Shown: piece after piece, positions 7,227 through 64,000 of the stretch
Numbering within the stretch: the stretch's first letter is position 1
How the letters are laid out: each line of letters starts with the position of its first letter
Source: Achromobacter xylosoxidans
GTDB lineage: Bacteria; Pseudomonadota; Gammaproteobacteria; Burkholderiales; Burkholderiaceae_B
Direction of reading: 5' to 3'
NCBI RefSeq assembly: GCF_001457475.1
Contig: NZ_LN831029.1
Location: 3,596,001-3,660,000 of the forward strand
DNA length: 64,000 nucleotides
Translations under genes and position numbers: made by a program
The notes under the pieces: generated by a model
The model's database searches: none
Told to the model about the DNA's origin: nothing
The model's input: only the letters and a program-made list of their open reading frames with translations

Positions 7227-7267
7227 CCGCGCCCGCCAGACGCTACGGCTAGAGGTCGCCCTCGACC

Positions 7268-9568
7268 TTACGGCCGGGCCGGCGCCAACCCGTCCAGGTT
7301 CGCCCGCATCTGCTCCACGCGCGCCGCCGAGGCGGTGTCGGTCTTCATCTTGGCCTCCTCGGCCTTGAAATCGGTCTTGCCGAAGATGTCCTTGTCGCGC
7401 GTGCGGAAGTACAGCGTGGTGCTGGCCAGCAGGTGATCGGGCCAGCTGCTCAACATGGCGTCGTGCACCAGGAAGTCGAACAGCGCCATCACTTTGGGCG
7501 GCAGCGGATTCTTGCCGGCGCTGGCCTCGCGCCACACGTTCAGCAGCCGCTGCTCGGTGGCGCGCCTGGCCTTCATGTCGGCGAACGGATCCTTGGGCTT
7601 GTCTGCCTCGGTGAGCGTGCCGCCACCGCGGGTGATGAGCTCGTTGCGCATGTTCTGCATGTCGAGCTGGTCCTGCTCCATCCGCTCGATGGCCCGCACC
7701 GTATTCGGATTGTTGCGGCGGAATTCTTCCTTGTGGCGCTCCATGGCGGCGTCCTGGCGCTCCGCGTCCTCCAGCGCCCGGTACTCTTCCTCCAGGCGCT
7801 GCCACAGCGGCTTGAAGCGCTGCGGCGGCAGCTCGCCACGACTGGCCACGGCTCGATCCCAGCGTTCGTTCTTGAGCGCCTCCAGTTCCTTCAGGCGGGC
7901 CGTGTTCTCCGGCTTGGCCTGCTCTTCCCTGGACAGCCCCAGCACGCGGCGGTACTCCTCGATATAGGCCTTCTCGGGCGTATAGAAGTCGCGGTCCTGG
8001 ATCCACTTCTCGGCGGGATCGGACAGCTCGCTCTTGAATACCGGATCCTGGTAGCGCACGGCCAGCCAGCGCAGGAACACTTCCATGTGCGGCATGAAGT
8101 CCACGCCCGGCTCGTACTTGACCACGCCGCGATACGCCTCGACCAGCTCGGTGATGCGGTAGCTCTGGCCACCGTCCTGGATGGACATGCCCATGCTGAA
8201 CTTGGCGTACGTCAGCGGGCGCTTGTCGAACAATTGCTCCATGCTGTAGAAACCCACGCCGTGGCACAGGCCGAGGTTCAGCATGTCGCGCAGCGGCACC
8301 CGCGACAGTTCCGCGCGCGAGCCCAGCGACCCCTCGGGGCTGACCCCGGTGACGTCGCCGCTGGATCCCGGATAGAGATACTGTTCGCCCCGAGTCTTCT
8401 CCAGGCTGTCCAGGCGCTGGTTGGCGCGCAACTCCTGGGCGGCGGCGAAATGCACGCATTTGTCGACCGCGCCCGGCACCGTCAGGGTACGATCCTTGTG
8501 CGTCTGCTTGAGCAGATCGGTGAAAGGCAGAAAGCCCAGGAACGTGTTCTCGTCCATGATCGAGGACACTGAATCCAGCAGCCCCAGGAAGCGGATGCGG
8601 ATCTCGGCCTCGCGCGCGCCGTTCTTGCCCGGAAACACCAGGTCCTTGTCGTGGCGCCGGCGGTACTTCTTGACCACGTCGTTGATGAACTGGCGCGCCA
8701 TGACCCCGCCGCGGTCGCCGCCGAACACCGAAATCTCGATCCGCCGCACGTTGTTCATCTCGGCGCTGACGGCTTCATGCGTTGCGCGCAGTTGGCGCAG
8801 CGCGGCGTCCACCCGCACGTCGACCCCGGTGCCCATCAGGTAGGCCACGGTCTCGTTGTCGCGAATGACGGGCACGCCTTCCAGCGCGGTGCTCTTGGCC
8901 ACTTCCTTGGCCGCCGTCCAGCCCACCTTCAGCGGGTTCTTCTTGAAGCCGGCCCAGAACCCACGCACGGTGCCCTTGGCACGGTTGGCCAGGCGTTCCG
9001 GATCCCAGGCATTCCAGATTCGCACGACCTTGTCGGGCAAGGTCTTGACGTCTTTCACCACGTCCTTGTACGCCTTGACCATAGGCTGGAATGACCCCTC
9101 CTTGATCATCTTCTGCGTGGCGCTGCGCAGGCGCTTCAAGGCATCCGTCTCGGGGATCTCGTCGGTACGGGTAATGTTCTTGACCGCGCTCTTGGCATTG
9201 TTGGCCGCTTCGCTGAGGATCTTCCGGCCGGCGACGGTCGCGCCGTAGATGAGATCATCGTTCTTGGCGTCCTCGTTGAGCTCGGTGCCCAGGCCGGAAT
9301 AGTAGAACCTGAACCAATACTGGTTCACGGGACGGTCTTCATCGTCGTGGGCATAGTGCGCTTCCCAGAGCCGGCAGACGTTCGAATAGAACGTGGGGTG
9401 CTGGCTGTCCACATCCCGGCTGCGGCCGAAGCCGTCGAAAAAGAACCCGATGCGGATCACGGCGCCGCACTCCTGGCAATCCTGCCTGGGATAGGCGGCC
9501 TCGCTTTCGGCCATTTTCTTCAGAACGCTGGCGGGGGTGCGATCCACCGGCGGCAGGCTGTCAGCCAT
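7268..9568 (-). CDS. Tle1-like (DUF2235) T6SS lipase-family effector with Asp at the nucleophile position
   Basis: This 766-residue protein resembles the DUF2235/Tle1 alpha/beta-hydrolase effectors. The N-terminal strand motif is IGFFFDGFG (family form FFDGT). The nucleophile elbow is VFGGDRGG with D285, where Tle1 enzymes have GFSRGA with serine. A C-terminal LVHDAMLSSW matches the family's catalytic-His region (VHDS-type), and a central TERELLTRG-like charged helical part includes a Glu/Arg-rich coiled segment around residues 560-660. The gene is the last of a minus-strand module: vgrG, DUF4123 adaptor, DUF3304 lipoprotein, effector. The start overlaps the lipoprotein stop by 8 bp. Phospholipase activity is doubtful with Asp; an Asp-nucleophile chemistry, a non-enzymatic role or loss of activity are alternatives. 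Confidence 0.78.
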   Translation of the reverse strand: MADSLPPVDRTPASVLKKMAESEAAYPRQDCQECGAVIRIGFFFDGFGRSRDVDSQHPTFYSNVCRLWEAHYAHDDEDRPVNQYWFRFYYSGLGTELNEDAKNDDLIYGATVAGRKILSEAANNAKSAVKNITRTDEIPETDALKRLRSATQKMIKEGSFQPMVKAYKDVVKDVKTLPDKVVRIWNAWDPERLANRAKGTVRGFWAGFKKNPLKVGWTAAKEVAKSTALEGVPVIRDNETVAYLMGTGVDVRVDAALRQLRATHEAVSAEMNNVRRIEISVFGGDRGGVMARQFINDVVKKYRRRHDKDLVFPGKNGAREAEIRIRFLGLLDSVSSIMDENTFLGFLPFTDLLKQTHKDRTLTVPGAVDKCVHFAAAQELRANQRLDSLEKTRGEQYLYPGSSGDVTGVSPEGSLGSRAELSRVPLRDMLNLGLCHGVGFYSMEQLFDKRPLTYAKFSMGMSIQDGGQSYRITELVEAYRGVVKYEPGVDFMPHMEVFLRWLAVRYQDPVFKSELSDPAEKWIQDRDFYTPEKAYIEEYRRVLGLSREEQAKPENTARLKELEALKNERWDRAVASRGELPPQRFKPLWQRLEEEYRALEDAERQDAAMERHKEEFRRNNPNTVRAIERMEQDQLDMQNMRNELITRGGGTLTEADKPKDPFADMKARRATEQRLLNVWREASAGKNPLPPKVMALFDFLVHDAMLSSWPDHLLASTTLYFRTRDKDIFGKTDFKAEEAKMKTDTASAARVEQMRANLDGLAPARP

Positions 9569-47378: not shown

Positions 47379-48440
47379 TCATTGGAACGCCGGCTTGTAG
47401 GCGTACAGCCCCGGCGCGCTGCCCGTCATCACGAACAGCACGTCGCTGCCGGCTGCATGGCGGCCGGCGCGCACGTCGGCCAAGAGGCCGGCGAAGGCCT
47501 TGCCCGAATACACCGGGTCGAGCAGCAGCCCTTCGCTGCGCGCCAGCAGGCCGACGGCCTCGAGCATGGCGGGCGTGGGCACGCCGTAGGCCGGACCACG
47601 CTGGCTGCCGTCCACCAGGATGTCGTTGGGCGCCGGCGCGGCCGTCTCGCCCGTGGCGGCGCCGTGTTCGCCATCCGCCCGGCCCAGCAGCGCCAGGGTG
47701 GCGGCCGTCAGGTCGCGCGTCTTCGCCTGCGCGACCTCGGTGTCGGCCAGGGTGGTGAACGACTGCACGCGGGTTGCCGGCAGGCCCGCCGCGACCATGC
47801 CGGCGGCCAGGCCGGCGTGGGTGCCGGCGCTGCCATTGGCCACCACCACCTGCGCGAACGTCACGCCCAGGGCGCGCTCCTGCTCCAGGATCTCCTGCGC
47901 GCAGGCCGCATAGCCCAGCGCGCCGACCGGCGTGGAGCCGCCCAGCGGCGCCAGGTAGACGCGGCGTCCCGCCAGTTCCAGCGCGCGCACCCGTTCCAGG
48001 GCCGCCGCCATGGCGTCGGCGCCGACCGGCAAGGCGTGCACGGTGGCGCCGAGCAGCCGGTTGAGCAGCATGTTGCCGTTTTCTTCGTAATCGGCGTCGG
48101 CGCGCGGCACCACCCGCCCCAGCACCAGCTCGCAGGCCATGCCGGCGCGGGCCGCGGCCGCGGCGGTCAGGCGCGCATGGTTCGATTGCAGGCCGCCCAC
48201 GGTCACCACCGTGTCGGCCCCCTGCCCGCGCGCCTCGCCCAGCAGGAACTCCAGCTTGCGCAGCTTGTTGCCGCCCCCGCCCAGCGCCATGTGGTCATCG
48301 CGCTTGGCGTACAGGCGCACGCCGTTGGCCGCCGCGCCCAGCGCCGCCTCCAGCCGGGCCAGGCGCTGGATCGGCGTCGGGCCATCGAGCAGGGCGTAAC
48401 GGGGAAAGCGTTGCAGGGCGGACGACAAATCTATGGACAT
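47379..48440 (-). CDS. D-cysteine desulfhydrase / ACC-deaminase family PLP enzyme
   Basis: This 353-residue PLP enzyme has GGGGNKLRKLEFLLG with the Schiff-base Lys and the SNHARLTAAAAARAG phosphate/carboxylate loop, as in D-cysteine desulfhydrase (DcyD) and ACC deaminase. A Gly-rich cofactor-binding loop is seen in VVANGSAGTHAG and the ending DVLFVMTGSAPGLYAYKP. The specific substrate (D-Cys, ACC or another D-amino acid) is not determinable. It is divergent from the GntR/FCD gene. The start ATG at 48440 gives the family N-terminus. Confidence 0.85.
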   Translation of the reverse strand: MSIDLSSALQRFPRYALLDGPTPIQRLARLEAALGAAANGVRLYAKRDDHMALGGGGNKLRKLEFLLGEARGQGADTVVTVGGLQSNHARLTAAAAARAGMACELVLGRVVPRADADYEENGNMLLNRLLGATVHALPVGADAMAAALERVRALELAGRRVYLAPLGGSTPVGALGYAACAQEILEQERALGVTFAQVVVANGSAGTHAGLAAGMVAAGLPATRVQSFTTLADTEVAQAKTRDLTAATLALLGRADGEHGAATGETAAPAPNDILVDGSQRGPAYGVPTPAMLEAVGLLARSEGLLLDPVYSGKAFAGLLADVRAGRHAAGSDVLFVMTGSAPGLYAYKPAFQ

Positions 48441-48633
48441 GGGCGGATTCCTGGATACGTTGAAAGCCGGCCGGCAGCCGGATGCCGCTGCCGGTCCGGG
48501 CGTGACACGGGGATGGCCAGCAGGATACGCCAGGTCCCCCGGGGGATTGATCACGCTTGGCGGCGCGATTGTGCGGAATCCGGCATGAATCGACCCAGAC
48601 CGGCTCCACCGGGCGCGCAGAAGGCCGGTTCGC

Positions 48634-49538: not shown

Positions 49539-49985
49539 ATGTACAAGCACATTCTCATTCCCACGGACGGCTCGCAATTGTCCTCGGAAGCCCTGGTCGA
49601 AAGCCTTGATCTGGCCAGGTCGCTGGGCGCCAAGGCCACCATCCTCACGGTCGAGGAACCCTTCCACGTCTTCGCCATGGGCGCGGCGCAGGTGGCCCAC
49701 AGCCTGGGCGAGTACCAGGACCAGATCCGCGCCCAGGCCGAACGCCTCTTGAGCGCGGCCGCCACCCAGGCGCGCGAAGCCGGCGTGCCTTGCGAAACGC
49801 TGCGCGCCACCCACGAAGATCCGTACCAGGCCATCATCGACGCGGCCCGCGAGCGCCACTGCGACCTGATCGCCATGGCTTCGCACGGCCGCCGCGGCAT
49901 GGCCGCCGTGGTGCTGGGCAGCCAGACGCAGAAGGTGCTGGCGCATTCCACCACGCCGGTGCTGGTGTACCGCAAGAAGGCCTGA
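49539..49985 (+). CDS. Universal stress protein (UspA family)
   Basis: This 148-residue protein is a single UspA domain, with the opening KHILIPTDGSQLSSEAL and the ATP-binding tail MASHGRRGMAAVVLGSQTQKVLAHSTTPVLVY, including the G-2x-G-9x-G(S/T) motif. It is presumably cytoplasmic and ATP-binding. A degenerate FNR-like site upstream hints at anaerobic induction. It stands alone. Confidence 0.93.
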   Translation: MYKHILIPTDGSQLSSEALVESLDLARSLGAKATILTVEEPFHVFAMGAAQVAHSLGEYQDQIRAQAERLLSAAATQAREAGVPCETLRATHEDPYQAIIDAARERHCDLIAMASHGRRGMAAVVLGSQTQKVLAHSTTPVLVYRKKA

Positions 49986-51092: not shown

Positions 51093-52622
51093 ATGACGCA
51101 GCGCAATCCCTTCCCCGCTGTCGCCGCGCCCGCGCCGGGTCGCTGGCTGGTGCTGGCCATCGTTTCCAGCGCCCTGTTGCTGATCGTGGTCGACATGACC
51201 GTGCTGTACACCGCCCTGCCCCGGCTCACGCACGAGCTGGGCGTGACGGCCTCGTCCAAGCTCTGGATCGTCAACATCTACGCGCTGGTGGTGTCCGGCC
51301 TGCTGCTGGGCATGGGCACGCTGGGCGACCGACTGGGCCACAAGCGCCTGTTCATGATGGGCCTGGCCGTGTTCGGCGCGGCCTCGCTGGCGGCGGCCTA
51401 TTCGCCCAACCCCGCGGCGCTGATCGCGGCGCGCGCGGTGCTGGCCGTGGGCGCGGCCATGATGATGCCGGCGACCCTGTCGATCCTGCGCCTGACCTTC
51501 GCCGACGAGCGCGAGCGCGCCATCGCCATCGGCGTCTGGGCCTCGGTGGCCTCGGGCGGCGCGGCGCTCGGACCGGTCATCGGCGGCATCCTGCTGGAGC
51601 ACTTCTGGTGGGGCTCGGTGTTCCTGATCAACCTGCCGATCGTGCTGCTGGCCCTGCCGCTGGCGCGCCGCTACATCCCCGCCGGCCAGCCGGATCGCCA
51701 GCGCCCCTGGGACCTGATCGGTTCGCTGCAGGTGATGGTCGGCCTGATCCTGACCGCCTATGCGCTCAAGGAGCTGGGCCGCGCCCAGCCGTCGTGGCTG
51801 GACGCCGCGCTGGCCTGCGCCGGCGGCGCGGCCATGCTGTTCGTCTTCGCCCGGCGCCAACGCGCGCGGCCGCATCCGCTGATCGATTTCGCCATCTTCC
51901 GCAACCGCAGCTTCAGCTCGGCCGTGGCCGCGGCGCTGTTCGCGGCGGCGGCGCTGCTGGGCATGGAGCTGGTGTTCAGCCAGCGCCTGCAGCTGGTGCT
52001 GGGCATGTCGCCGATCGAGGCGGCGCTCTACATCCTGCCTTTGCCGCTGGCCGCGTTCATCGCCGGGCCGCTGGCCGGCTGGCTGCTGCCGAAGGTGGGC
52101 AGCGCGCGTCTGCTGTTCGTGGCGCTGCTGACGTCCGGCCTGGGCATGGGCGGCTACCTGTTCAGCTACGACGGCGCGCTGGCGGCGCAGATGGCCAGTC
52201 TGTGCGTGCTGGGCGTGGGCATCGGCGCCACCATGACGGCCGCGTCCAGCACCATCATGCAGAGCGCCACGCCGGAACGCGCCGGCATGGCCGCCTCGAT
52301 CGAGGAAGTGTCGTATGAACTGGGCGGCGCGCTGGGCGTGACGCTGATGGGCTCGATCCTGTCGGGGGTGTACGCGCACACGCTGGACGTGCCGGCGGGC
52401 GTTTCCGCGGCCGTCGCCCGCGACAGCCTGGACGAGGCGCTGGCGCTGGCCGAGGGCCTGTCCGGCGAATTGGGCGCGTCGCTGGCGCGCCTGGCGCGCG
52501 GCGCCTTCGACGCGGGCTACGCGGCGGTCATCGCCACGGCCGCCCTGATGCTGCTGGGCACCGCGGCGCTGGTGCTGGCAAACCGGCTGCGTGGCGGCGC
52601 GGGCGAGGCCACGCCCCGTTGA
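51093..52622 (+). CDS. MFS transporter, DHA2 family (14 TM)
   Basis: This 509-residue protein belongs to the 14-helix drug/proton antiporters: the helix 1 motif SSALLLIVVDMTVLYTALPRL, the loop GDRLGHKRLFMMG between helices 2 and 3 and motif-C-like ASGGAALGPVIGGILLEHFWW. Export of a toxic compound is likely. It is preceded by AGGAG 7 bases upstream of ATG and is divergent from a LysR gene. Confidence 0.9.
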   Translation: MTQRNPFPAVAAPAPGRWLVLAIVSSALLLIVVDMTVLYTALPRLTHELGVTASSKLWIVNIYALVVSGLLLGMGTLGDRLGHKRLFMMGLAVFGAASLAAAYSPNPAALIAARAVLAVGAAMMMPATLSILRLTFADERERAIAIGVWASVASGGAALGPVIGGILLEHFWWGSVFLINLPIVLLALPLARRYIPAGQPDRQRPWDLIGSLQVMVGLILTAYALKELGRAQPSWLDAALACAGGAAMLFVFARRQRARPHPLIDFAIFRNRSFSSAVAAALFAAAALLGMELVFSQRLQLVLGMSPIEAALYILPLPLAAFIAGPLAGWLLPKVGSARLLFVALLTSGLGMGGYLFSYDGALAAQMASLCVLGVGIGATMTAASSTIMQSATPERAGMAASIEEVSYELGGALGVTLMGSILSGVYAHTLDVPAGVSAAVARDSLDEALALAEGLSGELGASLARLARGAFDAGYAAVIATAALMLLGTAALVLANRLRGGAGEATPR

Positions 52623-52734
52623 TCGGGCGCCGGCTTCGCGGCGCTGCGAAAAACCTGCCCCCTGTCGGCACAAAGGCGGCAAGCCCCGTAAACTTCCGGA
52701 CATTCCCATTGAGATAGATCATCGTACCCAGGGT

Positions 52735-53220
52735 ATGGCTTCGGATAGGCTTATGCGAAACGTGAAACACAAGTCCGCCCCCGACAAGGACAGCTATTTG
52801 TTCTCCGACCAGATTGGGCACCTGCTGCGGCGGGTGTACCAACGGCATACCGCCCTGTTCCAGCAGTACATCCCCGACTCGCAGCTGACCGCGGCGCAGT
52901 TCGTCGTGTTGTGCTCGGTACGCGACAACCAGGGCAGTTCGCTGGCGGATATCGTCAAGGCCACGGTCATCGACCAGGCCACGGTGCGCGGCGTCGTCGA
53001 CCGGCTCAAGCAGCGCGAGCTGGTGCGGGTCGACCACGACCCGCACGACCGCCGCAAGGTGGTCATCAACCTGACCCCGGTGGGCCAGGAGCTGGTGCGC
53101 AAGATGGAACCCTTTGCCCTGCAGATCACCGAAAGCACCTACGGCACGCTCAATCCCGCCGAGCGCGTGGCGCTGGAATTCCTGCTGCGCAAGATGATCG
53201 AGGGCGACGCCGGGGAATGA
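52735..53220 (+). CDS. nicR: MarR-family regulator, BpsR/NicR-like repressor of nicotinate degradation
   Basis: This 161-residue protein is a MarR winged-helix regulator: QLTAAQFVVLCSVRDNQGSS, then the recognition region IVKATVIDQATVRGVVDRLKQRELVRVDHDPHDRRKVVINLT, with dimerisation helices at both ends. In Bordetella the homologue (BpsR) represses the nicotinate catabolic genes in response to 6-hydroxynicotinate, and NicR does this in Pseudomonas putida. The gene is at the left end of the nic locus, which supports the same role. Start choice is 52735 (MASDRLM); a second ATG at 52753 is possible. The ribosome-binding sites are poor for both. Its own operator was not identified. Confidence 0.85.
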   Translation: MASDRLMRNVKHKSAPDKDSYLFSDQIGHLLRRVYQRHTALFQQYIPDSQLTAAQFVVLCSVRDNQGSSLADIVKATVIDQATVRGVVDRLKQRELVRVDHDPHDRRKVVINLTPVGQELVRKMEPFALQITESTYGTLNPAERVALEFLLRKMIEGDAGE

Positions 53221-53316: not shown

Positions 53317-54633
53317 TCAGTCCAGCGCGCGGTTGCGCGACTCGACGTCGACCGCCCGGATCGACAGCGCCGCGGCCAGCAGCATGGCCGCCAGCACCGC
53401 CAGCGCCAGCGTGAAGTGGGTGGCCATGATGGGTGCGATGATGGCCGGCGCGAACAGCCCGCCGAAACGCGCCACCGCGCCCGCCAGCCCCATGCCGCTG
53501 GCGCGCAGGTCGGTCGGATAGACCTCGGGCGTGAAGGCGTACAGCGCGCCCCAGGTACCCAGCAACGCGAAGCTCATGAGCAGCGTCGAGCCAACCACCA
53601 GGAAGCTGGAGGTGCCCAGGCTGTACAGCATGCACCCCACCGCGCTCAGGATCAGGAAGCCGACCAGCGTGGGCTTGCGGCCCCAGCGTTCCACCCCGTA
53701 GGCCGACAGCGCGAAGCCGGGCAATTGCACCAGCGCCAGCAGCACCAGGAATTCCTGGCCGCGCATGAAGGCGAAGCCCTGGCTGCTGAGCTTGATCGGC
53801 AGGTAGACGAACACGCCGTAGTAGGCGATGGAGATCAGCGCCCAGGCCAGGCACAGCGCGATGCTGCGGCGGCGCAGCGCGTTCGAGAACAGTGCCGACA
53901 GCGGCTTGCGCTCATGCAGTTCCGGCTTGAGCTCGGGGATGTCGGTCGGACGTCCGTTGACGCGGGCCACGCGTTCGAGCACCTTGCGCGCCTGTCCCGA
54001 CTTGCCGTTGCGGTTCAGGTACATCGGCGACTCGGGGATGTAGAAGCGCAGTACCACGCCGATCAGCGCCGGCAGGCCGGTGACGAAGAAGATCACGCGC
54101 CAGGCATCATCGCCCCACGACAGCGCGGCCAGCGCCAGCAGCGCCAGGCAGATCGTGCCCAGGGCCCAGAACGATTCCAGCAACACCAGCCAGCGGCCGC
54201 GGCGCTCGCTGGGCAGGAACTCGGCCATCATGGTGTAGTCCACCGGCAGCGTGCCGCCGACACCGATGCCGGTGACGAAGCGCAGCAGCAACAACCACGC
54301 GAAGTCCGGCGCGAAGGCCGAGGCCACGCCGGCGCAGGCGTCGATGACCACCGCCATCATCAGCACCGGCCGGCGGCCGATGCGGTCGGCCAGCCGGCCG
54401 AAGGCGAAGGCGCCGATCAGCATGCCGACGAAGAACGCGGTGCCGGTCTGCAGGGCTTCGGGCACCGGGATGCCGAAGGTGCGGGCGATGGACGGCGCGC
54501 TGAAGCCGATCGACAGCACCTGCATCGCGTCGGCGAGCCAGACCAGGCCGAAGATCATGAACAGCCGGTACTGGAACTTGCCGACACCGGCGGTCTTGAT
54601 GCCTTGTTCCACCGTGATGAATGAAGCTGACAT
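53317..54633 (-). CDS. MFS transporter, probable nicotinate uptake (NicT/NiaP-like)
   Basis: This 438-residue protein has 12 transmembrane helices and the sugar-porter/aromatic-acid-type signatures GRLADRIGRRPVLM (loop 2-3), TGIGVGGTLPVDYTMMAEFLPSERRGR (helices 4-5 region) and YGVERWGRKPTLVG (loop 8-9). These are shared by niacin transporters such as NiaP and by organic-acid importers. As the only transporter inside the nic locus it probably imports nicotinate, but the substrate is inferred from context. The start at 54633 (MSASFITVEQ) gives the family N-terminus. Confidence 0.85.
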   Translation of the reverse strand: MSASFITVEQGIKTAGVGKFQYRLFMIFGLVWLADAMQVLSIGFSAPSIARTFGIPVPEALQTGTAFFVGMLIGAFAFGRLADRIGRRPVLMMAVVIDACAGVASAFAPDFAWLLLLRFVTGIGVGGTLPVDYTMMAEFLPSERRGRWLVLLESFWALGTICLALLALAALSWGDDAWRVIFFVTGLPALIGVVLRFYIPESPMYLNRNGKSGQARKVLERVARVNGRPTDIPELKPELHERKPLSALFSNALRRRSIALCLAWALISIAYYGVFVYLPIKLSSQGFAFMRGQEFLVLLALVQLPGFALSAYGVERWGRKPTLVGFLILSAVGCMLYSLGTSSFLVVGSTLLMSFALLGTWGALYAFTPEVYPTDLRASGMGLAGAVARFGGLFAPAIIAPIMATHFTLALAVLAAMLLAAALSIRAVDVESRNRALD

Positions 54634-54841
54634 ATGCGTGATTCCCTTTGTTTGCCGCGCGCGGCCCGTGCCCGCCAAGGCGCCGGTGCCGCTGTCGGTA
54701 TGTGGCCCGCCCCGCGGATGCGGGGGTACAGCAACGCCCCTCGGCGCCAGGCGGGTGCCGATGGAAAACCGATGCGCGCGATGTTGTGTCGCGAGGCGCG
54801 GCCGGACCCGCCATGGGCCGGTCCGCTGCCCCGTCTTCCCC
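54634..54841. other. Intergenic region between the MFS gene and the nicB-like gene
   Basis: The 208-bp gap separates two minus-strand genes, so it holds the end of the nicCAB transcript and probably the promoter for the MFS gene. It is GC-rich. Only the CATATGCGTG sequence at the MFS start stands out; no operator or terminator with good symmetry was found. Confidence 0.35.
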
Positions 54842-57724
54842 TTACTGCTGCTGCGCGTGCTGGCGCAGCCTGCCTATGGTCGTCGTGTCAACTGGCCAAG
54901 CCTCTTCCTCCGGCGCGAATCGCGCGCGCAAATAGTCGATCAAATCGCCGATCTGCCTGTCGTCCAGGCTGTTGCCGAAACCCGGCATGTATCCCAGGGC
55001 GTCGTCGGCGGGAGCCTGGATGCCGTTGAGGATCACCTGGATCAGGTTGTCGGGCGATGCGGCATGCAGATTGGTGTTCTGGGCCAGCAAGGGCTTGGCG
55101 CCGAACAGGGTGGGACCGCTGCCGGGTTCGTGGCAGACGGCACAGGCATTCTGGTAGATACGTTCGCCGCTGGCGCGGCGCAGCGTGATCGCTTCGCTGG
55201 CGGCGGCGCTGGCCGTGGCGGCGCTGGCGGGCGCAGTGCTCGTGGCGGCGGCGGTCGGGCGCGGCGGCGCCTCGGCAGGCATCGCGCGGGCCCGCCCGGG
55301 CAACGCCGTCAGGTACGTGACGATGGCGCGCAAATCGCTGTCCGGCAACTCGGCCAGGCCATGGATCACCGGCGCCATGGGGCCCGCGGCCACGCCATGG
55401 CGCGGCGAATAGCCGGTGCGCAGGTACTGGTAGAGTTCCTCGCCAGACCAGGCGCGCTCGCCGCTGGCAAGCTGGTTCAGGGCCGGCGCGTTCCAGCCCT
55501 CGGCCTGCCCGCCGGCCAGGTAGTCGAGGCCGCCCTTCTGCGCGCCCAAGGCGTTGCGCGGCGAATGGCAGGCGGCGCAATGTCCCGCGCCTTCGACCAG
55601 GTACGCGCCGCGGTTCCACTGCGCATCCTGCGACGGATCCGGCGTGAAGGGCTTGGGATCATGGAACAGCAGGTTCCAGCCGGCCAGCAGCGGCCGCAGG
55701 TTGAACGGAAAACCCAGCTCGGTGCGCGGCGGCGTGGCGGCGACCGCCGGCTGCGACATGAGGTAGCCATACAAGGCCTGCATGTCCGCGTCGCTGAGCT
55801 TGGCATAGGCGGTGTACGGAAAAGCGGGATACAGCTGGCGGCCATCCTGGTGCACGCCCTGGCGCATGGCGCGTTCGAAGGCCGCGAAGGACCAGCGGCC
55901 GATGCCGGTCCGCGGATCGGGCGTGATGTTGGTGGAATAGATCGTGCCGAACGGCGTCTCCAGGGCCAGGCCGCCGGCGTTGCGGGCGCCGCCCGGCGCC
56001 GTGTGGCAGGCGACGCAATCGCCGGCCGCGGCCACCAGCCGGCCGCGCTCGATTGCCTGGGCCGAATACAAGGACGGGTCGGGACCGGCGGTCAGCGGCA
56101 GCGCCGGCTTGAGCGGCCACAGCGCGGTGGCCAGCGTGGCCACGCTGGCCGCGCCCGCCGCCAGCCAGCCCCAGCCTCGGCGCAGCGCGCCGCGCCGCGC
56201 CGCGCGCCGGTCCGCCAGGGCCAGGCGCAATTGGCCGGCATCGAACGGCGCCTGCCGCAGCCGCACCCCGGTGGCGTCCGCGATGGCGTTGGCGATGGCG
56301 GCGGCGGCCGGCAGCGTCGCCACGCCGTCCAGGTCGAGGCAGCCGGCGCGCACCACGTCGGGCGGCGTCGGCGCCGCCATGGCCAGCGCATCCGTCGCCC
56401 CGTTCGCGGCCGCCGGCGTGGCGGCGCGCCAATCGTCGAACGCCGCCGGCGCGCCGATCAGGCGGCGGGCCTCGGCCAGCCGTTCGGGTTGCTGGCGGGT
56501 GATGGCCAGGCGTGTCGTCGCGCCCTGCGCCGGCCGCAGGTCCTGGCTGTCATGGCCGGCGACTACCCGCGTCACCTCGATCGCGCCGGTGGCGGGCTGG
56601 ATCGCCACCTCGGCAACCCAGGCGCTCCAGACCATGCGTTCCGAACCATCCTCGGCCTCGCAACGCACCTGGGCCGTGGCAAAGCCGCTGCCGCGCAGCA
56701 GGCCGTCGCGCGGCGCGGCGGCGTCATCCATGGCCGCCTGCTCGACCACCTGGCGCGCCAGCTCGCGGCCGCGCGCGTCGGCCAGGTGCCGCAGGCGCCA
56801 GTCAACCGGATCCTCGCCGGCGGCCAGCGCGCGTTCATGCCACAGGCTTTCGCCGGCGAAGACCTGAGCCGCGTTCAACTCGTCGACGCTGGCGTGCAGC
56901 AAGGCATGCGACGACGCTTGCGCCCGTACCGGGCCATCGCCCAGCACCGTGGCATGGCCACTGGCCGGCGCCGGCCCGGACCGCGCCAGCAGGCGCGCCA
57001 GGCTGGGCCGCATGGCCCAGGGCCGCGGCGAGCACAGGACCGGCCCCGCCGCCAGGTCCGCTGCGCGCAGGGCCAGCGTGGCCGGCAGCGGCGGGCGGCT
57101 GGCCACGCACACCGGCCGCGCCACCGCCTCGGACAGCAGCGCCGCTTCGGCGGCGGCATCCAGCAGATCGAGCGCATGCGCCGCGTGCGCGGCCGGGGCC
57201 GCGCCCTGCGGCCATGCCGCCACGGTCACCGCGCACTCGGGCCAGTCGAACAAGGCCGCCAGCTCGCGCCGTGCCAGGGCATGCAGCGCGGCCGCGTCCG
57301 GTGGCAGCCACAGCGTCAGGCGGCCTTCCAGGCACCAGGCCGCGACCCGCGCGCTGGCCGCAGCCGCGGCCGCGGCCGGCCGCCAGAGATATTCAGGTTC
57401 ATCCGCCGGCGCCGTGCCGGCGCTTTCGGCCAGGCCTTCCTGCGCCGGCCGGCCCCCGCCACGCCACGCGGGCGCGAGACTGGCCAGGGCCTGCCGCGCG
57501 TGCAGCGGCGTCACCGCCACCACACCGGCGAAGTTGTCCCGCCGCACCACCGCCACCACGCCCGCCTGCGCCCGCGCCTCGTCCAGGCGCACGCTGTCGA
57601 GCGCGCTGCCGCGATAACGGGTGCCGTCCCAGGCGGCTTCGGGCGGGCGCAGCGCCAGCCCGTGCAACAGCTCGGAGGCCGGCGCGACGGCGAGCGGCGC
57701 GGCCTCGGGCAGCCACGCGCTCAT
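54842..57724 (-). CDS. nicB: NicB-like nicotinate dehydrogenase subunit: condensed molybdopterin-type region fused to triheme cytochrome c
   Basis: This 960-residue protein combines a compressed xanthine-dehydrogenase-like region with a C-terminal triheme cytochrome c. Residues ~1-520 keep pieces of a large molybdopterin subunit, such as EDPVDWRLRHLADARGREL and the end-piece TLPAAAAIANAIADATGVRL, but are much shorter than a full catalytic subunit and lack the usual Gly-rich cofactor-binding motifs. A hydrophobic helix (~residues 540-560) is followed by three CxxCH heme sites: CVACH (570-574), CAACH (716-720) and CAVCH (861-865). P. putida NicB is a single large protein with both functions. 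Here the intact Mo-binding counterpart appears to be the gene starting at 62401. The start overlaps the nicA stop (ATGA), so it is translated with NicA. It probably passes electrons to the respiratory chain. Confidence 0.85.
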   Translation of the reverse strand: MSAWLPEAAPLAVAPASELLHGLALRPPEAAWDGTRYRGSALDSVRLDEARAQAGVVAVVRRDNFAGVVAVTPLHARQALASLAPAWRGGGRPAQEGLAESAGTAPADEPEYLWRPAAAAAAASARVAAWCLEGRLTLWLPPDAAALHALARRELAALFDWPECAVTVAAWPQGAAPAAHAAHALDLLDAAAEAALLSEAVARPVCVASRPPLPATLALRAADLAAGPVLCSPRPWAMRPSLARLLARSGPAPASGHATVLGDGPVRAQASSHALLHASVDELNAAQVFAGESLWHERALAAGEDPVDWRLRHLADARGRELARQVVEQAAMDDAAAPRDGLLRGSGFATAQVRCEAEDGSERMVWSAWVAEVAIQPATGAIEVTRVVAGHDSQDLRPAQGATTRLAITRQQPERLAEARRLIGAPAAFDDWRAATPAAANGATDALAMAAPTPPDVVRAGCLDLDGVATLPAAAAIANAIADATGVRLRQAPFDAGQLRLALADRRAARRGALRRGWGWLAAGAASVATLATALWPLKPALPLTAGPDPSLYSAQAIERGRLVAAAGDCVACHTAPGGARNAGGLALETPFGTIYSTNITPDPRTGIGRWSFAAFERAMRQGVHQDGRQLYPAFPYTAYAKLSDADMQALYGYLMSQPAVAATPPRTELGFPFNLRPLLAGWNLLFHDPKPFTPDPSQDAQWNRGAYLVEGAGHCAACHSPRNALGAQKGGLDYLAGGQAEGWNAPALNQLASGERAWSGEELYQYLRTGYSPRHGVAAGPMAPVIHGLAELPDSDLRAIVTYLTALPGRARAMPAEAPPRPTAAATSTAPASAATASAAASEAITLRRASGERIYQNACAVCHEPGSGPTLFGAKPLLAQNTNLHAASPDNLIQVILNGIQAPADDALGYMPGFGNSLDDRQIGDLIDYLRARFAPEEEAWPVDTTTIGRLRQHAQQQ

Positions 57725-58251
57725 GCGCCGGCCCCTTCCGGCCCGCATGGCCGCGCCGCTGCGCGCAATTGCACCGCGCGCAGCGCCGCCTGCATGATTT
57801 CAACGTGCGTGCCGCAGCGGCACAGGTTGTGATGCAGCTCGCTGCGCACGGCCCGCTCCGAGGGCGCGGGGTCGCGGCGCAGCAACGCCTCGACGGTCAT
57901 GATCATGCCGTTCAGGCAATAGCCGCACTGGGCCGCCTGGCATTCGATGAAAGCGCGCTGGGTCGGCCCGGGCCGCTCGCGCGTGCCCAACCCTTCCAGC
58001 GTGGTGACTTCGCGTCCCTGCGCCGCCCGCACCGGGATCACACAGGAACGCGCCGCCACGCCGTCGATCAGCACGGTGCAGGCGCCGCACTCGCCCAGGC
58101 CGCAACCGTATTTCGGACCGTTCAGCGCCAGGTCGTTGCGCAGCACCAGCAACAGCGGGGTCGCCGGCGCCACCGCCACCCGCGCGGCGGCGCCGTTGAC
58201 CTTCAGGTCGATCGGATCGGCGGCGGGCGCGGTGGCGGCGGTATGTTCCAT
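57721..58251 (-). CDS. nicA: Nicotinate dehydrogenase small [2Fe-2S] subunit NicA
   Basis: This 176-residue protein has the two typical [2Fe-2S] domains of molybdenum hydroxylase small subunits: the plant-ferredoxin-like cluster in KYGCGLGECGACTVL with C in ARSCVIP, and the second cluster in AAQCGYCLNGMIM with the terminal NLCRCGTH. NicA carries electrons from the molybdenum site to the cytochrome domains in the conversion of nicotinate to 6-hydroxynicotinate. The start at 58251 was chosen because the longer in-frame reading has no family features. It overlaps nicB by four bases and is 44 bp after nicC. Confidence 0.92.
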   Translation of the reverse strand: MEHTAATAPAADPIDLKVNGAAARVAVAPATPLLLVLRNDLALNGPKYGCGLGECGACTVLIDGVAARSCVIPVRAAQGREVTTLEGLGTRERPGPTQRAFIECQAAQCGYCLNGMIMTVEALLRRDPAPSERAVRSELHHNLCRCGTHVEIMQAALRAVQLRAAARPCGPEGAGA

Positions 58252-58295
58252 GGTGTGCGTGGCGAAAGTCCGGTGAATGAAGCGCGGCGGGCGCG

Positions 58296-59767
<1,472 letters not shown>

Positions 59768-60601
59768 ATGAGCCAACCATCCAGCACCTTCCTGTACGGC
59801 GCCAACGTCCACGCCAACGGCATCCGCCAGCACTACCTGCGCTACGGCGGCGCGGACGGCGCGCGCGCCGAACGCGACGCGCTCATCCTGATCCCCGGCA
59901 TCACCAGCCCGGCGGTCACCTGGGGCTTCGTGGCCGAGCGCCTGGGCCAGCGCTACGACACCTACGTGCTGGACGTGCGCGGCCGCGGCCTGTCCAGCGC
60001 CGACCCCGGCCTGGACTACAGCCTGGACGCGCAGGCCGCCGACGTGCTGGCGCTGGCGCAGGCGCTGGGCCTGCAGCGCTACGCCCTGATGGGCCATTCC
60101 ATGGGCGGCCGCATCGCGGTGCGCGCGGCCCGCGGCCAGCCGGCCGGCCTGACGCGGCTGGTCATCGTCGACCCGCCCGTCTCCGGCCCGGGCCGCCGCC
60201 CCTACCCCGCCAAGCTGGCCTGGTACGTCGACTCGATCCGCCAGGCCACGCACGGCATGGACGCCGAGGCCATGCGCGCCTTCTGCCCCACCTGGACCGA
60301 GGAACAGCGGCGCCTGCGCGCGCAATGGCTGCACACCTGCCACGAACCCGCCATCGTGCGCAGCTTCGAGGACTTCGGCCGCGACGACATCCATGCCGAC
60401 CTGCCGCATGTGCGCGTGCCGCAGTTGCTGATGACCGCCGAGAACGGCGGCGTGGTCGGCGACGAGGACGTGGCCGAATGGCAGGGCCTGGCGCCCGACA
60501 CCCTGCACCGGCGCGTGCCCGCCGCCGGCCACATGATCCCCTGGGACAACGAGGCCGGCTTCCACGAGGCGCTGGGCGACTTCCTCGAACCGCGCGGCTG
60601 A
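59768..60601 (+). CDS. nicD: N-formylmaleamate deformylase NicD
   Basis: This 277-residue alpha/beta-hydrolase converts N-formylmaleamate to maleamate and formate. The catalytic triad is visible: S111 in GHSMGG, D135 in VIVDPP and H255 in AAGHMIP, each ten residues beyond the positions known in P. putida NicD. It is the first gene of the plus-strand nicDXF group, with the next gene 35 bp away. The start at 59768 has an upstream GGAGCACGGC context. Confidence 0.93.
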   Translation: MSQPSSTFLYGANVHANGIRQHYLRYGGADGARAERDALILIPGITSPAVTWGFVAERLGQRYDTYVLDVRGRGLSSADPGLDYSLDAQAADVLALAQALGLQRYALMGHSMGGRIAVRAARGQPAGLTRLVIVDPPVSGPGRRPYPAKLAWYVDSIRQATHGMDAEAMRAFCPTWTEEQRRLRAQWLHTCHEPAIVRSFEDFGRDDIHADLPHVRVPQLLMTAENGGVVGDEDVAEWQGLAPDTLHRRVPAAGHMIPWDNEAGFHEALGDFLEPRG

Positions 60602-60636
60602 ATCCCCTTTTCCCCCTTACCGGACAGGAGTCCGCC

Positions 60637-61710
60637 ATGCCCGTCAGCGACATCGACCTGATCCGCGCCTGGAAACAGGTGCTCACGCTTTCCCGCCTCG
60701 AAGCCGGCCAGACCGTGACCGTGCTCACCGGCGCCGACACCCATCCGCAGACGCTGCGCTGCGCCATCGCCGCCGCCGGCGACATGGGCGCGCGGGTCAA
60801 CCGCCTCGACCTGCCGCCGGTCAACGGCGAAAAATCCCTCAGCCGCGACTCGCTGGCCTACCTGGGCACCACGCCGCTGACCGGCAACCCCGCCGCCATC
60901 GCCGCGCTCAAGGCCAGCGACCTGGTGCTGGACCTGATGACGCTGCTGTTCTCGCCCGAGCAGCACGAGATCCTGCTGGGCGGCACCAAGATCCTGCTGG
61001 CGGTCGAGCCGCCCGAGATTCTCTGCCGCCTGGTGCCCACCGAGGCCGACCGCGCCCGCGTGCGCGCGGCCGCCGCGCAAATCGCCGAGGCGCGCCAGAT
61101 GCGCATCACCTCCCGGGCCGGCACCGACCTGCAATGCCGCCTGGGCAGCTTCCCGGCGATTTCCGAATACGGTTTCGTCGACGAGCCAGGGCGCTGGGAC
61201 CACTGGCCCAGCGGCTTCGTGCTGACCTGGCCCGACGAGGGCCACAGCAACGGCCAGGTGGTGCTGGACCGCGGCGACATCCTGCTGCCGATGAAGGACT
61301 ACGTCACCGACCCGATCACCCTCACCGTGGAACGCGGCTACGTCACCCGCATCCAGGGCGGCCTGCAGGCCGAGGTGCTGCGCGACTACATGGCGTCGTA
61401 CGAAGACCCGGAAGCGTACGCCGTCTCGCACATCGGCTGGGGCCTGCAGCCGCGCGCCCACTGGTCGATGCTGGGCCACTACGGCAAGGAGACCCACATC
61501 GGCATGGACGCCCGCGCCTTCGAGGGCAACTTCCTCTGGTCCATGGGACCGAACAACGAGGCCGGCGGTCAACGCACCACCGCCTGCCATATCGACATCC
61601 CGATGCGCCGCTGCACGGTGATGCTGGACGAACGCGCCGTCGTCATCGACGGCGTGGTGCAGGACGAACCCGGGCTGGCCTACGCCGCCCGCCGCAAGGA
61701 GCTGGCATGA
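60637..61710 (+). CDS. nicX: 2,5-dihydroxypyridine 5,6-dioxygenase NicX
   Basis: This 357-residue Fe(II) dioxygenase opens the 2,5-dihydroxypyridine ring to N-formylmaleamate. The iron ligands H265 (in SHIGWG), H318 and D320 (in CHID) fall at exactly the positions reported for P. putida NicX, so the protein appears complete and active. A CAGGAG ribosome-binding site precedes the ATG. The stop overlaps the nicF start. Confidence 0.95.
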   Translation: MPVSDIDLIRAWKQVLTLSRLEAGQTVTVLTGADTHPQTLRCAIAAAGDMGARVNRLDLPPVNGEKSLSRDSLAYLGTTPLTGNPAAIAALKASDLVLDLMTLLFSPEQHEILLGGTKILLAVEPPEILCRLVPTEADRARVRAAAAQIAEARQMRITSRAGTDLQCRLGSFPAISEYGFVDEPGRWDHWPSGFVLTWPDEGHSNGQVVLDRGDILLPMKDYVTDPITLTVERGYVTRIQGGLQAEVLRDYMASYEDPEAYAVSHIGWGLQPRAHWSMLGHYGKETHIGMDARAFEGNFLWSMGPNNEAGGQRTTACHIDIPMRRCTVMLDERAVVIDGVVQDEPGLAYAARRKELA

Positions 61711-62360
61711 CCCACACCGTTCCCGCCGGGGATATCTCGGCCTACGCCCGCCAGGGCTTCGGCACGCCGCTGCCGTTGAAGGCGCCGTTCGGCCTGCTGA
61801 TCATCGACTTCGTCAACGGCTTTGCCGACCCCGCCGTGTTCGGCGGCGGCAACATCCCGCCGGCCATCGAGCGCACCCGGACGTTGCTGGCGCATGCGCG
61901 CGAACAAGGGTGGCCGGTGGCCCACAGCCGCATCGTGTTCTCCGACGACGATGCCGACAGCAACATCTTCTGCCTCAAGGTGCCGGGCATGCTGACCCTG
62001 AAGGAAGACAGCCACAACAGCACCATCGTGCCGCAGCTGGCCCCCGCGCCCGGCGAATACGTGGTGCGCAAGAGCACGCCGTCGGCGTTCTACGGCACCA
62101 TGCTGGCGCCGTGGCTGGCGCAACGCGGCGTGCAGACGCTGGTGGTGGCCGGCTGCGTCACCAGCGGCTGCGTGCGCGCCAGCGTGGTCGACGCCATGCA
62201 GGCTGGCTTGCGGCCACTGGTGGTGTCCGACTGTTGCGGCGACCGCGCGCTGGGGCCGCACGAGGCCAACCTGTTCGACATGGCGCAGAAGTACGCCGCC
62301 GTCATGCCGCTGGAGCAGGCGCTGGCCGACATCGCCGCGCTGCCCGGCGCGGCGCGATAG
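61707..62360 (+). CDS. nicF: Maleamate amidohydrolase NicF
   Basis: This 217-residue isochorismatase-like cysteine hydrolase converts maleamate to maleate and ammonia. The Asp-Lys-Cys triad is D34 (LLIIDFVNGF), K122 (VVRKSTPSAF) and C150 (VAGCVTSGCVRAS). The ATG overlaps the nicX stop by four bases, which implies translational coupling. The last pathway step, maleate isomerase, is not seen in the window. Confidence 0.94.
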   Translation: MTHTVPAGDISAYARQGFGTPLPLKAPFGLLIIDFVNGFADPAVFGGGNIPPAIERTRTLLAHAREQGWPVAHSRIVFSDDDADSNIFCLKVPGMLTLKEDSHNSTIVPQLAPAPGEYVVRKSTPSAFYGTMLAPWLAQRGVQTLVVAGCVTSGCVRASVVDAMQAGLRPLVVSDCCGDRALGPHEANLFDMAQKYAAVMPLEQALADIAALPGAAR

Positions 62361-62400
62361 CGGCATAATCAGCCAATCCGCCCGGATCGCCTTCGCCCAT

Positions 62401-64000
62401 GAACCTGCCCCATCCCCGCGCGCAGCACGACGCGCTGCTGAGCCACCCCGGCGCGCTCCTGGTCGTGCGCGCGCCGACCGCCCCGCCGCGCCCGGCGCCC
62501 GGGCAGCCGGGCGTGGTCTCGGATTACGTCCAGGACACGCCCGAGATCTTCGTGGCGGTGCTGGCAGATGATGCCGCGCCTGATGGCTGGCGCGCGCTGG
62601 CCTTCAACGGCCACGTCGACCTGGGCACCGGCATCCGCACCGCGCTGGCGCAGATCGTGGCCGAGGAATTGCATGTGCCGATGGCGCGGCTCGAAATGGT
62701 GCTGGGCCACACCAACGCCACCCCCAACCAGGGCCCCACCATCGCCAGCGCCAGCATCCAGATTTCGGCCGCGCCCTTGCGCCGCGCCGCGGCCCAGGCG
62801 CGCGAGCAGCTGCTGGCGCGGGCCGCGCGGCAATGGGGCGTGGCGGCGGACACGCTGCGCTTGCGCGACGGCATCGTGCGCCCCGCCGATGAGCGCGACG
62901 AACGCGCCCTGCGCTACGGTCAACTGGTCCAGGGCCAGCACACCCGGCTGGAACTGGCCGCCGATGATTCCCAGGTGCGGCTCAAGCCGGCGGGCGACTA
63001 CACCCTGGTCGGCAGCGCCGTCGCGCGCGTCGACATTCCCGCCAAGGCCACCGGCGAACTGAGCTTCGTGCACGACGTGCGCGTGCCCGGCATGCGCCAC
63101 GGCCGCGTGGTGCGCCCGCCGCATCCCGGCCGCGATGCCGGCGACTTCATCGGCCGCTGCCTGCTCGATGTCGACACCGGTTCGGTCGCGCACCTGCCCG
63201 GGCGCGTCCAGGTCGTGGTGCAAGGCGATTTCATCGGCGTGGTGGCGGACCGCGAGGAGCAGGCCGAAGCCGCCATGCGCGCGCTCAAGGTCCGCTGGAA
63301 GCCGGTGCCGCCGGCGCCGGCGCTCGACGACCTGGCCAGCGCCATCCGCGCCAACCCGGCGCGCCGCCGCCTGCTGCTGGAGGAAGGCGACGTCGACGCC
63401 GCCTGTGCCGGCGCAGCGGTGCACCTGCGCCGCACCTACGTCTGGCCCTACCAGATGCACGCGTCGATCGGGCCTTCGTGCGCGGTGGCGGATCATCGCG
63501 ATGGCCGCCTCACGGTCTGGGCCGGCACCCAGAATCCGCACATGCTGCGCGCAGACCTGGACCGCCTGCTCAAGCTGGGCGAGGACCGCATCGACATCAT
63601 CCGCATGGAAGCCGCCGGCTGTTATGGCCGCAACTGCGCCGACGACGTCTGCGCCGACGCCGCGCTGCTGTCGGCCGCCGTCGGCGCGCCGGTGCGGGTG
63701 CAACTGATGCGCGACCAGGAACACCAGTGGGAGCCCAAGGGCACGGGCCAGCTGATGGACGTGGGCGCGGCGCTGGACACCGAGGGCAGGCTGCTGGCCT
63801 ACGACTTCCAGGTGCGCTATCCGTCCAACGACGCGCCGCTGCTGGCGCTGCTGCTGACCGGCGGCGTGTCCGGCGAGCCGCGCGTGCTGGAAATGGGCGA
63901 CCGCACCTCGGTGCCGCCGTATCGCTATCCCAGCCGCCGCATCGTCTGCCACGACACCGCGCCGCTGGTGCGCGCCTCGTGGCTGCGCGGGGTCTCGGCC
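62401..64000 (+). CDS. Molybdopterin-type nicotinate dehydrogenase large subunit (partial, runs off right edge)
   Basis: The frame from ATG at 62401 is open to the window end (533 residues visible). It is an aldehyde oxidase/xanthine dehydrogenase-type large subunit of the isoquinoline-1-oxidoreductase-beta branch: FNGHVDLGTGIRTALAQIVA, ATPNQGPTIASASIQISAAP, the substrate-channel segment PYQMHASIGPSCAVAD and MEAAGCYGRNCADDVCADAA. Unlike the gene at 54842-57724 it keeps the intact Mo-binding features but no heme motifs are visible in the portion present. It follows nicF by 40 bp and is probably the catalytic partner of NicA. The C-terminus cannot be seen, so a fused cytochrome there is not excluded. 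Confidence 0.88.

Follow-up and report, generated by a model that had tools for sequence, protein, structure and literature searches.

How can one nicotinate hydroxylase be served by two genes, on opposite strands, that are both related to its large subunit? The question is raised by the nic gene cluster of Achromobacter xylosoxidans, which lies in the 64,000-nucleotide stretch analysed here (the window; positions 3596001–3660000 of the one-contig, 6.81 Mb genome) and which contains both nicB2 and nicB1. Some database records label the two products alike as ‘nicotinate dehydrogenase subunit B’. The enzyme of Pseudomonas putida KT2440 is the two-part NicAB, in which one NicB is joined to the cytochrome. 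The initial annotation of the window proposed a large subunit split across the two genes; instead, NicB1 is complete and NicB2 is a second, degenerate copy joined to a cytochrome, a division of labour between copies. The same annotation also proposed a three-part complex with a vestigial catalytic region used for docking. The tripartite gene set had in fact already been published and the decay is computed below, and docking is still the best inference: we give a probability of roughly two in three to a three-part enzyme in which a cytoplasmic NicA–NicB1 module is docked, by the dead domain of NicB2, to a membrane triheme cytochrome. By computation, this work shows the homology and decay of the pseudo-domain, its grouping in one clade, the purifying selection on it, the co-occurrence of NicB2 with NicB1 and the predicted charge topology. 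The genes and domains concerned are:

54842..57724, minus strand: nicB2, pseudo-molybdenum-hydroxylase domain, hydrophobic helix and triheme cytochrome c; 960 amino acids (968 from 57748)
54914..56065, minus strand: NicB2 triheme cytochrome c domain, residues 562–945, with CxxCH at residues 578, 724 and 869
56111..56212, minus strand: NicB2 arginine-rich stretch and predicted membrane helix, residues about 513–546; from the charge pattern, a cytoplasmic N-terminus is predicted
56177..57691, minus strand: NicB2 pseudo-catalytic domain, residues 20–524 of 968; degenerate active-site motifs, fold retained in the model
57721..58251, minus strand: nicA, [2Fe-2S] subunit; start picked by reading, the open frame reaching 58359
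62399..64000, plus strand: nicB1, complete catalytic-type molybdenum-hydroxylase subunit, 770 amino acids, continuing 711 bases past the window (L005:12399-14711; L and G numbers are our handles for loci and genomes)

The initial annotation had rightly recognised intact molybdenum-hydroxylase motifs in the right-hand gene, on the opposite strand, although nicB1 begins at 62399 and not, as given there, at 62401. MoCoBD_1 and MoCoBD_2 score 103.7 and 121.5 bits in NicB1 against a curated cut-off of 27, and the family-invariant motifs are in place, including GCYGRN and the glutamate of the GE motif (E720), which we take to be catalytic. Over the whole 770-residue protein, read past the end of the window, there is no cytochrome domain; the possibility of one at its end, for which the initial annotation had allowed, is excluded by the sequence beyond the window. 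Structure matches were drawn from Foldseek's best 1000 chains, and the best solved match of NicB1, in sequence and in fold, is the large subunit of the membrane-bound aldehyde dehydrogenase of Gluconobacter (PDB 8gy3), an enzyme that also provides the best match for the cytochrome of NicB2. The 8gy3 cytochrome chain (444 residues) is without a pseudo-molybdenum domain, unlike NicB2. A different precedent is the nicotinate dehydrogenase of Eubacterium barkeri (3hrd), in which the molybdenum region occupies two polypeptides, and its chains A and B each align with a separate part of NicB1. One active site is there cut in two, whereas in A. xylosoxidans NicB1 holds the whole site with its motifs and NicB2 is a parallel, apparently dead copy, so that a split of the E. 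barkeri type is rejected. The E. barkeri enzyme also includes a flavoprotein subunit, according to a review (PMC10331938).

For the gene at 54842–57724 the initial annotation described three CxxCH sites and a condensed, motif-poor, molybdopterin-like region, and both features are borne out. The open frame runs from 54842 to 57748 on the minus strand (968 residues), and 57724 is the start of residue 9 (MSAW); because M9 is nearly invariant across 54 aligned sequences, 57724 is the better start, in which case the nicA stop overlaps the nicB2 start by coordinates. The C-terminal part is a triheme membrane cytochrome c of the type found in 8gy3 and fructose dehydrogenase, matching 8gy3_A with E 4.9e-90 over chain residues 17–413 of 444, and all three heme sites recur in 47 of 47 NicB2 rows. 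The N-terminal part barely reaches Pfam MoCoBD_2 (E 0.0095; 15.9 bits, below the cut-off of 27), and the Pfam profile search found no MoCoBD_1 in NicB2 at E 0.01. Its ancestry is plainer in BLASTP, where NicB2 residues 27–502 align with NicB1 residues 232–747 at 28% identity (E 7e-20). The N-terminal GHVDLGTG stretch is absent and both GCYGRN and GE are lost; the molybdenum-hydroxylase fold is retained in the structural model. Among relatives that carry a source name, the best matches of the window's NicB2 are Achromobacter proteins, one of them, named A. xylosoxidans, with 93% identity.

The extent of the decay can be judged against 156 positions at which identity reaches 97% or more across 82 catalytic sequences (NicB1, fused NicB and close relatives). 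Trees and conservation were based on 128 non-identical complete frames, and any frame truncated at the edge of its locus was excluded. Each protein was translated stop to stop, and the extra residues that this gives some N-termini were removed by the alignment for conservation. Among 46 NicB2 sequences, 70 of the invariant positions are kept by at most one-tenth, 19 by at least nine-tenths and 67 fall between. In the N-terminal stretch 25 of 26 are lost; the C, Y and N of GCYGRN occur in none of the 46, and the GE glutamate is gone from 41. The retained positions concentrate at NicB1 531–603 (8 of 13) and 721–746 (7 of 9). Four NicB2 residues, E305, R318, N487 and R496, are present in 46 of 46 sequences. 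Because the active-site positions are lost and the retained ones clustered, catalysis by the pseudo-domain has most likely gone, and one portion of its surface or core seems to have been held. Conservation is uneven: one residue accounts for at least 90% of the sequences in 38 of 215 columns of the second half, compared with 2 of 271 in the first. The long N-terminal part is retained in 46 of 46 NicB2, the shortest being 391 residues including the helix. Over 11 pairs, some of which share a member, the two halves of the pseudo-domain have median ratios of non-synonymous to synonymous substitution (dN/dS) of 0.30 and 0.22, the cytochrome has 0.087 and NicB1 has 0.114 (the last taking in extra upstream codons of the stop-to-stop frames); these values point to selection on the pseudo-domain that is relaxed but purifying. 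Two NicB2 frames are damaged or unusual: that of Halomonas sp. PA16-9 (L020:10221-12926) stops soon after the third CxxCH, sooner than its relatives, possibly through a frameshift or sequencing error, and one Achromobacter genome has an in-frame TAG within the matched stretch (G008:C3:272000-274279).

The two proteins travel together. A NicX-anchored scan of named genomes, from which the best 80 of 573 confirmed loci were taken, found NicB1 in 39 of the 80, and in all 39 cases the genome also has NicB2, whole or partial, either within that locus or at another site. A NicB2 with a long N-terminal part is in the same locus in 35 of these, on the opposite strand every time (35/35). Of the others, L025 has only the NicB2 N-terminal part inside the locus, in L058 NicB2 is cut by a contig end, and the L042 and L098 genomes have it on another contig. 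Locus L058, from Cupriavidus campinensis, was considered as an intermediate with two catalytic copies and rejected, its minus-strand frame being a pseudo-domain cut by the contig end. Neither protein is encoded in the stretch of the remaining 41 loci, many of which resemble other pathways that use NicX; one of them (L050) is a short, truncated contig of an ordinary nic cluster, and a genome-wide search for four of them revealed a fused NicB elsewhere in three and none in the fourth. Across 41 Achromobacter genomes NicB2 occurs in 23 and NicB1 in 22, the mismatch being a 57%-complete assembly, and the pair is on opposite strands in 22 of 22. The same layout is found in replicons of Halomonas (L020) and Paraburkholderia (L021), and in eight of eight further split-type loci of the same class or order (L143–L150). 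Thus, the arrangement is not special to this genome; it is ordinary for the group and common in Burkholderiales. Elsewhere a single fused NicB with an intact molybdenum domain takes its place: in replicons of Rhizobium, Azospirillum and Methylobacterium (L018, L022, L023, L019), in a Pseudomonas fluorescens genome (L136) and in some Burkholderiales (L119, L121, L152). Such fused proteins (L018, L022 and L023 in nic clusters, and L136) have the same order of molybdenum domain, helix and triheme region, NicA adjoining and the same pathway neighbourhood, and differ from the window in being one polypeptide with an intact site and no separate NicB1. NicA is the listed same-strand neighbour in every row with a long-N-part NicB2, and likewise for fused NicB; adjacency of NicB2 and NicA passed the distance rule in 26 of 35 loci. 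Some loci are duplicates (L154 = L030, L156 = L121, L157 = L119, L182 = L138, L183 = L139), for which reason distinct counts are given beside row counts.

Where the parts of the enzyme reside is suggested by charge and export signals. A hydrophobic stretch precedes heme 1 in all 47 NicB2 rows (46 distinct), flanked per 15 residues by a mean of 4.9 Arg/Lys on its N-terminal side and 1.2 on the other, which predicts that the pseudo-domain is in the cytoplasm and the hemes are in the periplasm. A pattern script found no twin-arginine translocation (Tat) signal on 49 distinct NicB1 or 27 distinct fused NicB (in rows, 47 NicB1 with a pseudo-NicB2 in the locus, three with NicB2 cut or elsewhere, and 29 fused NicB), and a Tat-like string occurs in only one of 102 NicA or NicA-like frames (L087, a locus without NicB1). 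Since no export signal was found on either, NicB1 and NicA are both predicted to be cytoplasmic. By contrast, the molybdenum subunits of relatives without a pseudo-domain bear a Tat signal in 17 of 19 cases, 14 of them found by script and three by eye (L173 and L181, where the script's sequence ended at residue 200 and was too short, and L176, for which the pattern was too strict). These divide into 12 of the 13 whose locus includes a cytochrome gene (the exception, L177, being truncated) and five of six without one (L158, L169–L171 and L181; none is visible in L179). The relatives are incidental homology matches, not a random sample, and a cytochrome is called bare when fewer than 200 residues, stop to stop, precede the match. 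There would thus seem to be two layouts, one in which the molybdenum subunit is exported to the periplasm and accompanied by a bare cytochrome, and another in which it remains cytoplasmic and is linked to the cytochrome, either as a fusion or through a dead copy of itself. Separate-gene sets of NicA, NicB1 and cytochrome with Tat-type molybdenum subunits were seen in L151, L153 and L155; the genome of the last (G587) also holds the L154 cluster, which repeats that of Delftia tsuruhatensis (L030), so that one organism appears to carry both types.

On this basis, NicB1 would be the only catalytic molybdenum subunit and NicA the carrier of the [2Fe-2S] clusters, both in the cytoplasm, and NicB2 would be the membrane subunit, in which a single hydrophobic helix lies between a cytoplasmic, apparently dead molybdenum-hydroxylase domain and a triheme cytochrome c in the periplasm. 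Fused NicB, as found in alphaproteobacteria, Pseudomonas and some Burkholderiales, may be the older state; its molybdenum part would have been duplicated as NicB1, while the copy remaining on the cytochrome lost its active site and kept its surface pairing with NicB1, NicA or both, so that NicB2 may now serve as the dock by which soluble, catalytic NicA–NicB1 is joined to the respiratory cytochrome. A tree of the molybdenum domains (465 shared columns; support labels as printed after re-rooting) places the NicB2 N-terminal parts in one clade (46 sequences, support 92) on a long stem of 0.45, and NicB1 in another (49 sequences, support 99), adjoined (96) by a single fused NicB, also from Burkholderiales. 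The three types together fall within a clade of support 100, outside which are six relatives with a separate cytochrome gene or none. Grouping NicB2 with fused NicB to the exclusion of NicB1 is marginally rejected by the approximately unbiased (AU) test (0.047), which used 66 of the 128 sequences and 5000 replicates, a number that the program itself flags as too low. The simplest story, though not a proven one, would be that fused NicB came first and that duplication and decay followed.

The points that weigh against this reading concern its history, its membrane topology and the pseudo-domain itself. For the attachment of NicB2, the AU test rejects none of three positions: a sister relationship with NicB1 (0.48), one with a particular fused NicB (0.26), and a place outside all of them (0.37); because the branching order is thus unsettled, we infer the duplication history. 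The cytochrome tree gives NicB2 a support of 43 and has weak deep nodes, and the NicA tree (156 columns) is unresolved and does not keep the split-type NicA together. The membrane helix, predicted from hydropathy and charge, is likely rather than certain because its hydrophobicity is moderate: the Kyte–Doolittle mean over 19 residues has a median of 1.54 in NicB2 and a lowest value of 1.13, with 1.37 in this protein, and comparable values are higher in fused NicB (1.86) and in separate cytochromes (2.47). A looser Tat pattern without the hydrophobicity test matched two nic-type NicB1 (L056, L096), and the Tat pattern was applied without a shuffled control. If the molybdenum and iron–sulfur centres are cytoplasmic and the hemes periplasmic, there is no visible cofactor to conduct electrons across the membrane. 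Finally, the pseudo-domain has evolved more rapidly than the other parts, and its first half is down to 99–103 of 271 aligned residues in the three shortest proteins (Caballeronia L083 and L084, Paraburkholderia L021), a shrinkage that also fits slow erosion.

Such erosion is what would be seen if the N-terminal region of NicB2 were a dying relic without a present role, and the enzyme consisted of NicA, NicB1 and the triheme cytochrome. The dN/dS of 0.22–0.30, compared with 0.087 for the cytochrome, and the first-half shrinkage agree with this, as does the bare cytochrome gene of relatives. So does the enzyme of Comamonas testosteroni JA1, described in a review as NdhS, NdhL and NdhM, encoded by three genes, with subunits of 21, 82 and 46 kD, and active on nicotinate (PMC10331938): its 46 kD third subunit, taken as the cytochrome, is too small for a pseudo-domain and fits the separate-gene enzymes L151, L153 and L155. 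Yet in each of the 11 pairs both halves have a dN/dS of less than 0.6, none of the 46 NicB2 has dispensed with the long N-terminal part, the second half holds its conserved columns, and the relatives with a bare cytochrome mostly have Tat-type molybdenum subunits, which is a different layout. We therefore regard a relic as unlikely, docking being preferred because of the two-layout pattern. Alternatively, the whole complex might be periplasmic, like 8gy3, and co-exported by a route not visible in the sequences. Electrons would then have no membrane to cross, and this reading accords with the closeness of the cytochrome and NicB1 to 8gy3 chains in sequence and fold, and with the only moderately hydrophobic helix; set against the missing Tat signals on NicB1, fused NicB and all but one NicA-type frame, and a charge pattern that places the pseudo-domain in the cytoplasm, it seems improbable. 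Opposite strands, separate gene strings and the restriction of catalytic motifs to NicB1 could also mean that NicB1 and NicB2 belong to different enzymes that share a cluster and NicA, with NicB1 acting on another substrate. We consider this highly improbable, given their co-occurrence in 39 of 39 NicB1 loci and in 22 of the 23 Achromobacter genomes that have NicB2 (the other is the incomplete assembly), the lack of a recognisable catalytic site in NicB2, and the nic clusters of Rhizobium and Azospirillum, which carry one fused NicB in place of the pair.

Docking itself could take a more specific form. Homodimers of active protomers are usual in the molybdenum hydroxylase family, and it is a tentative and rather doubtful suggestion that NicB1 pairs with the dead NicB2 domain in place of a second active protomer, on the cytoplasmic side, with the hemes across the membrane. 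If this were true, a cytoplasmic molybdenum site would serve a periplasmic cytochrome with no known cofactor between them, which implies a quinone relay or an unknown route.

The rest of the cluster supplies the context for the substrate. From left to right the order is MarR (plus), nicT, nicB2, nicA and nicC (all minus), the intergenic region, then nicD, nicX, nicF and nicB1 (all plus):

52591..53220, plus strand: MarR-family regulator, in the position of NicR/BpsR (profile match and gene order)
53317..54678, minus strand: nicT, major facilitator superfamily transporter (profile match)
58296..59453, minus strand: nicC, flavin adenine dinucleotide monooxygenase, 6-hydroxynicotinate 3-monooxygenase by context (profile match)
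59454..59767, no strand: intergenic region between the diverging gene strings, with palindromes TTTTCCAGATGGAAAA and GTGCATTTTTATGCAC
59768..60601, plus strand: nicD, alpha/beta hydrolase, N-formylmaleamate deformylase by context (profile match)
60637..61710, plus strand: nicX, 2,5-dihydroxypyridine dioxygenase (homologue comparison)
61707..62360, plus strand: nicF, isochorismatase-fold protein, maleamate amidohydrolase by context (profile match)

NicX is 53–72% identical to three nic-cluster homologues, two of which, from Azospirillum, are annotated as 2,5-dihydroxypyridine dioxygenase. Together nicA, nicB1 and nicB2 cluster with nicC, nicD, nicX and nicF, the gene content of a tripartite NicA/NicB1/NicB2 system, and from this pathway neighbourhood the enzyme would be expected to hydroxylate nicotinate to 6-hydroxynicotinate. 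The nicE gene, usually found between nicC and nicD, is absent from the cluster of the window. The sole NicE (maleate isomerase) homologue found in the genome is at chromosome 413447–414187 (L104; 66% identical), 3.2 Mb from the nic cluster, and clusters L024, L025, L027, L037, L039 and L040 also have no nicE between nicC and nicD. Clusters of NicE, NicD, NicX and NicF without NicB1 (e.g. L051, L053, L078) carry a longer NicA-like frame of about 400 residues and probably serve another pyridine pathway converging on 2,5-dihydroxypyridine. Upstream of the cluster in the window, frames at 47379–48554 and 49539–49985 were labelled, by reading alone, as a pyridoxal-phosphate deaminase-like and a UspA-like universal stress protein. 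The same chromosome also encodes another molybdenum hydroxylase pair, of 897 (molybdenum) and 228 ([2Fe-2S]) residues (L168, 4609000–4623000; frames 6524–9498).

The initial annotation held that the two genes need coordinated expression from different promoters, which does not stand as worded: nicC-nicA-nicB2-nicT and nicD-nicX-nicF-nicB1 form two gene strings that run outwards from one intergenic region, at 59454–59767. In Bordetella a single repressor, BpsR, is described as binding the nicC and nicE promoters and repressing both (PMC6837509), and the two strings of the window are probably coordinated through their shared divergent region. One conserved operator for both strings was sought and rejected: the palindrome AGCGTATACGCT recurs in eight Achromobacter and Bordetella loci and is not in the window. 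Other intergenic palindromes recur in Cupriavidus, and none is claimed as an operator.

Parts of this picture were already known. The cluster of Delftia acidovorans Cs1-4 was annotated in 2015 as marR-nicT-nicB2-nicA-nicC-nicE-nicD-nicX-nicF-nicB1 (PMC4572682), the same genes in the order of the window except for nicE, and the hydroxylase of Burkholderia gladioli and Bordetella was called tripartite, NicA/NicB1/NicB2, in a 2023 paper (PMC10269826). In their accessible portions, the Delftia and B. gladioli accounts name the genes and make no mention of domain decay or topology. A literature search found no description of the NicB2 pseudo-domain, although it did not take in the primary papers on Bordetella (2018) and P. 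putida (2008), which may mention the domain. What appears to be new is the conserved dead domain and the two-layout pattern, as a variant of a known enzyme.

For annotation, nicB1 should not be equated with nicB2, and expression of these enzymes should be attempted with nicB2 present and its N-terminal domain included. A further question that the analysis makes testable is whether nicotinate hydroxylases of the NicB type act on the cytoplasmic or the periplasmic side of the membrane, and by what path they reach the respiratory chain. If docking is true, NicB2 would be a clear example of how an enzyme subunit can become a non-catalytic scaffold, here one kept across several genera.

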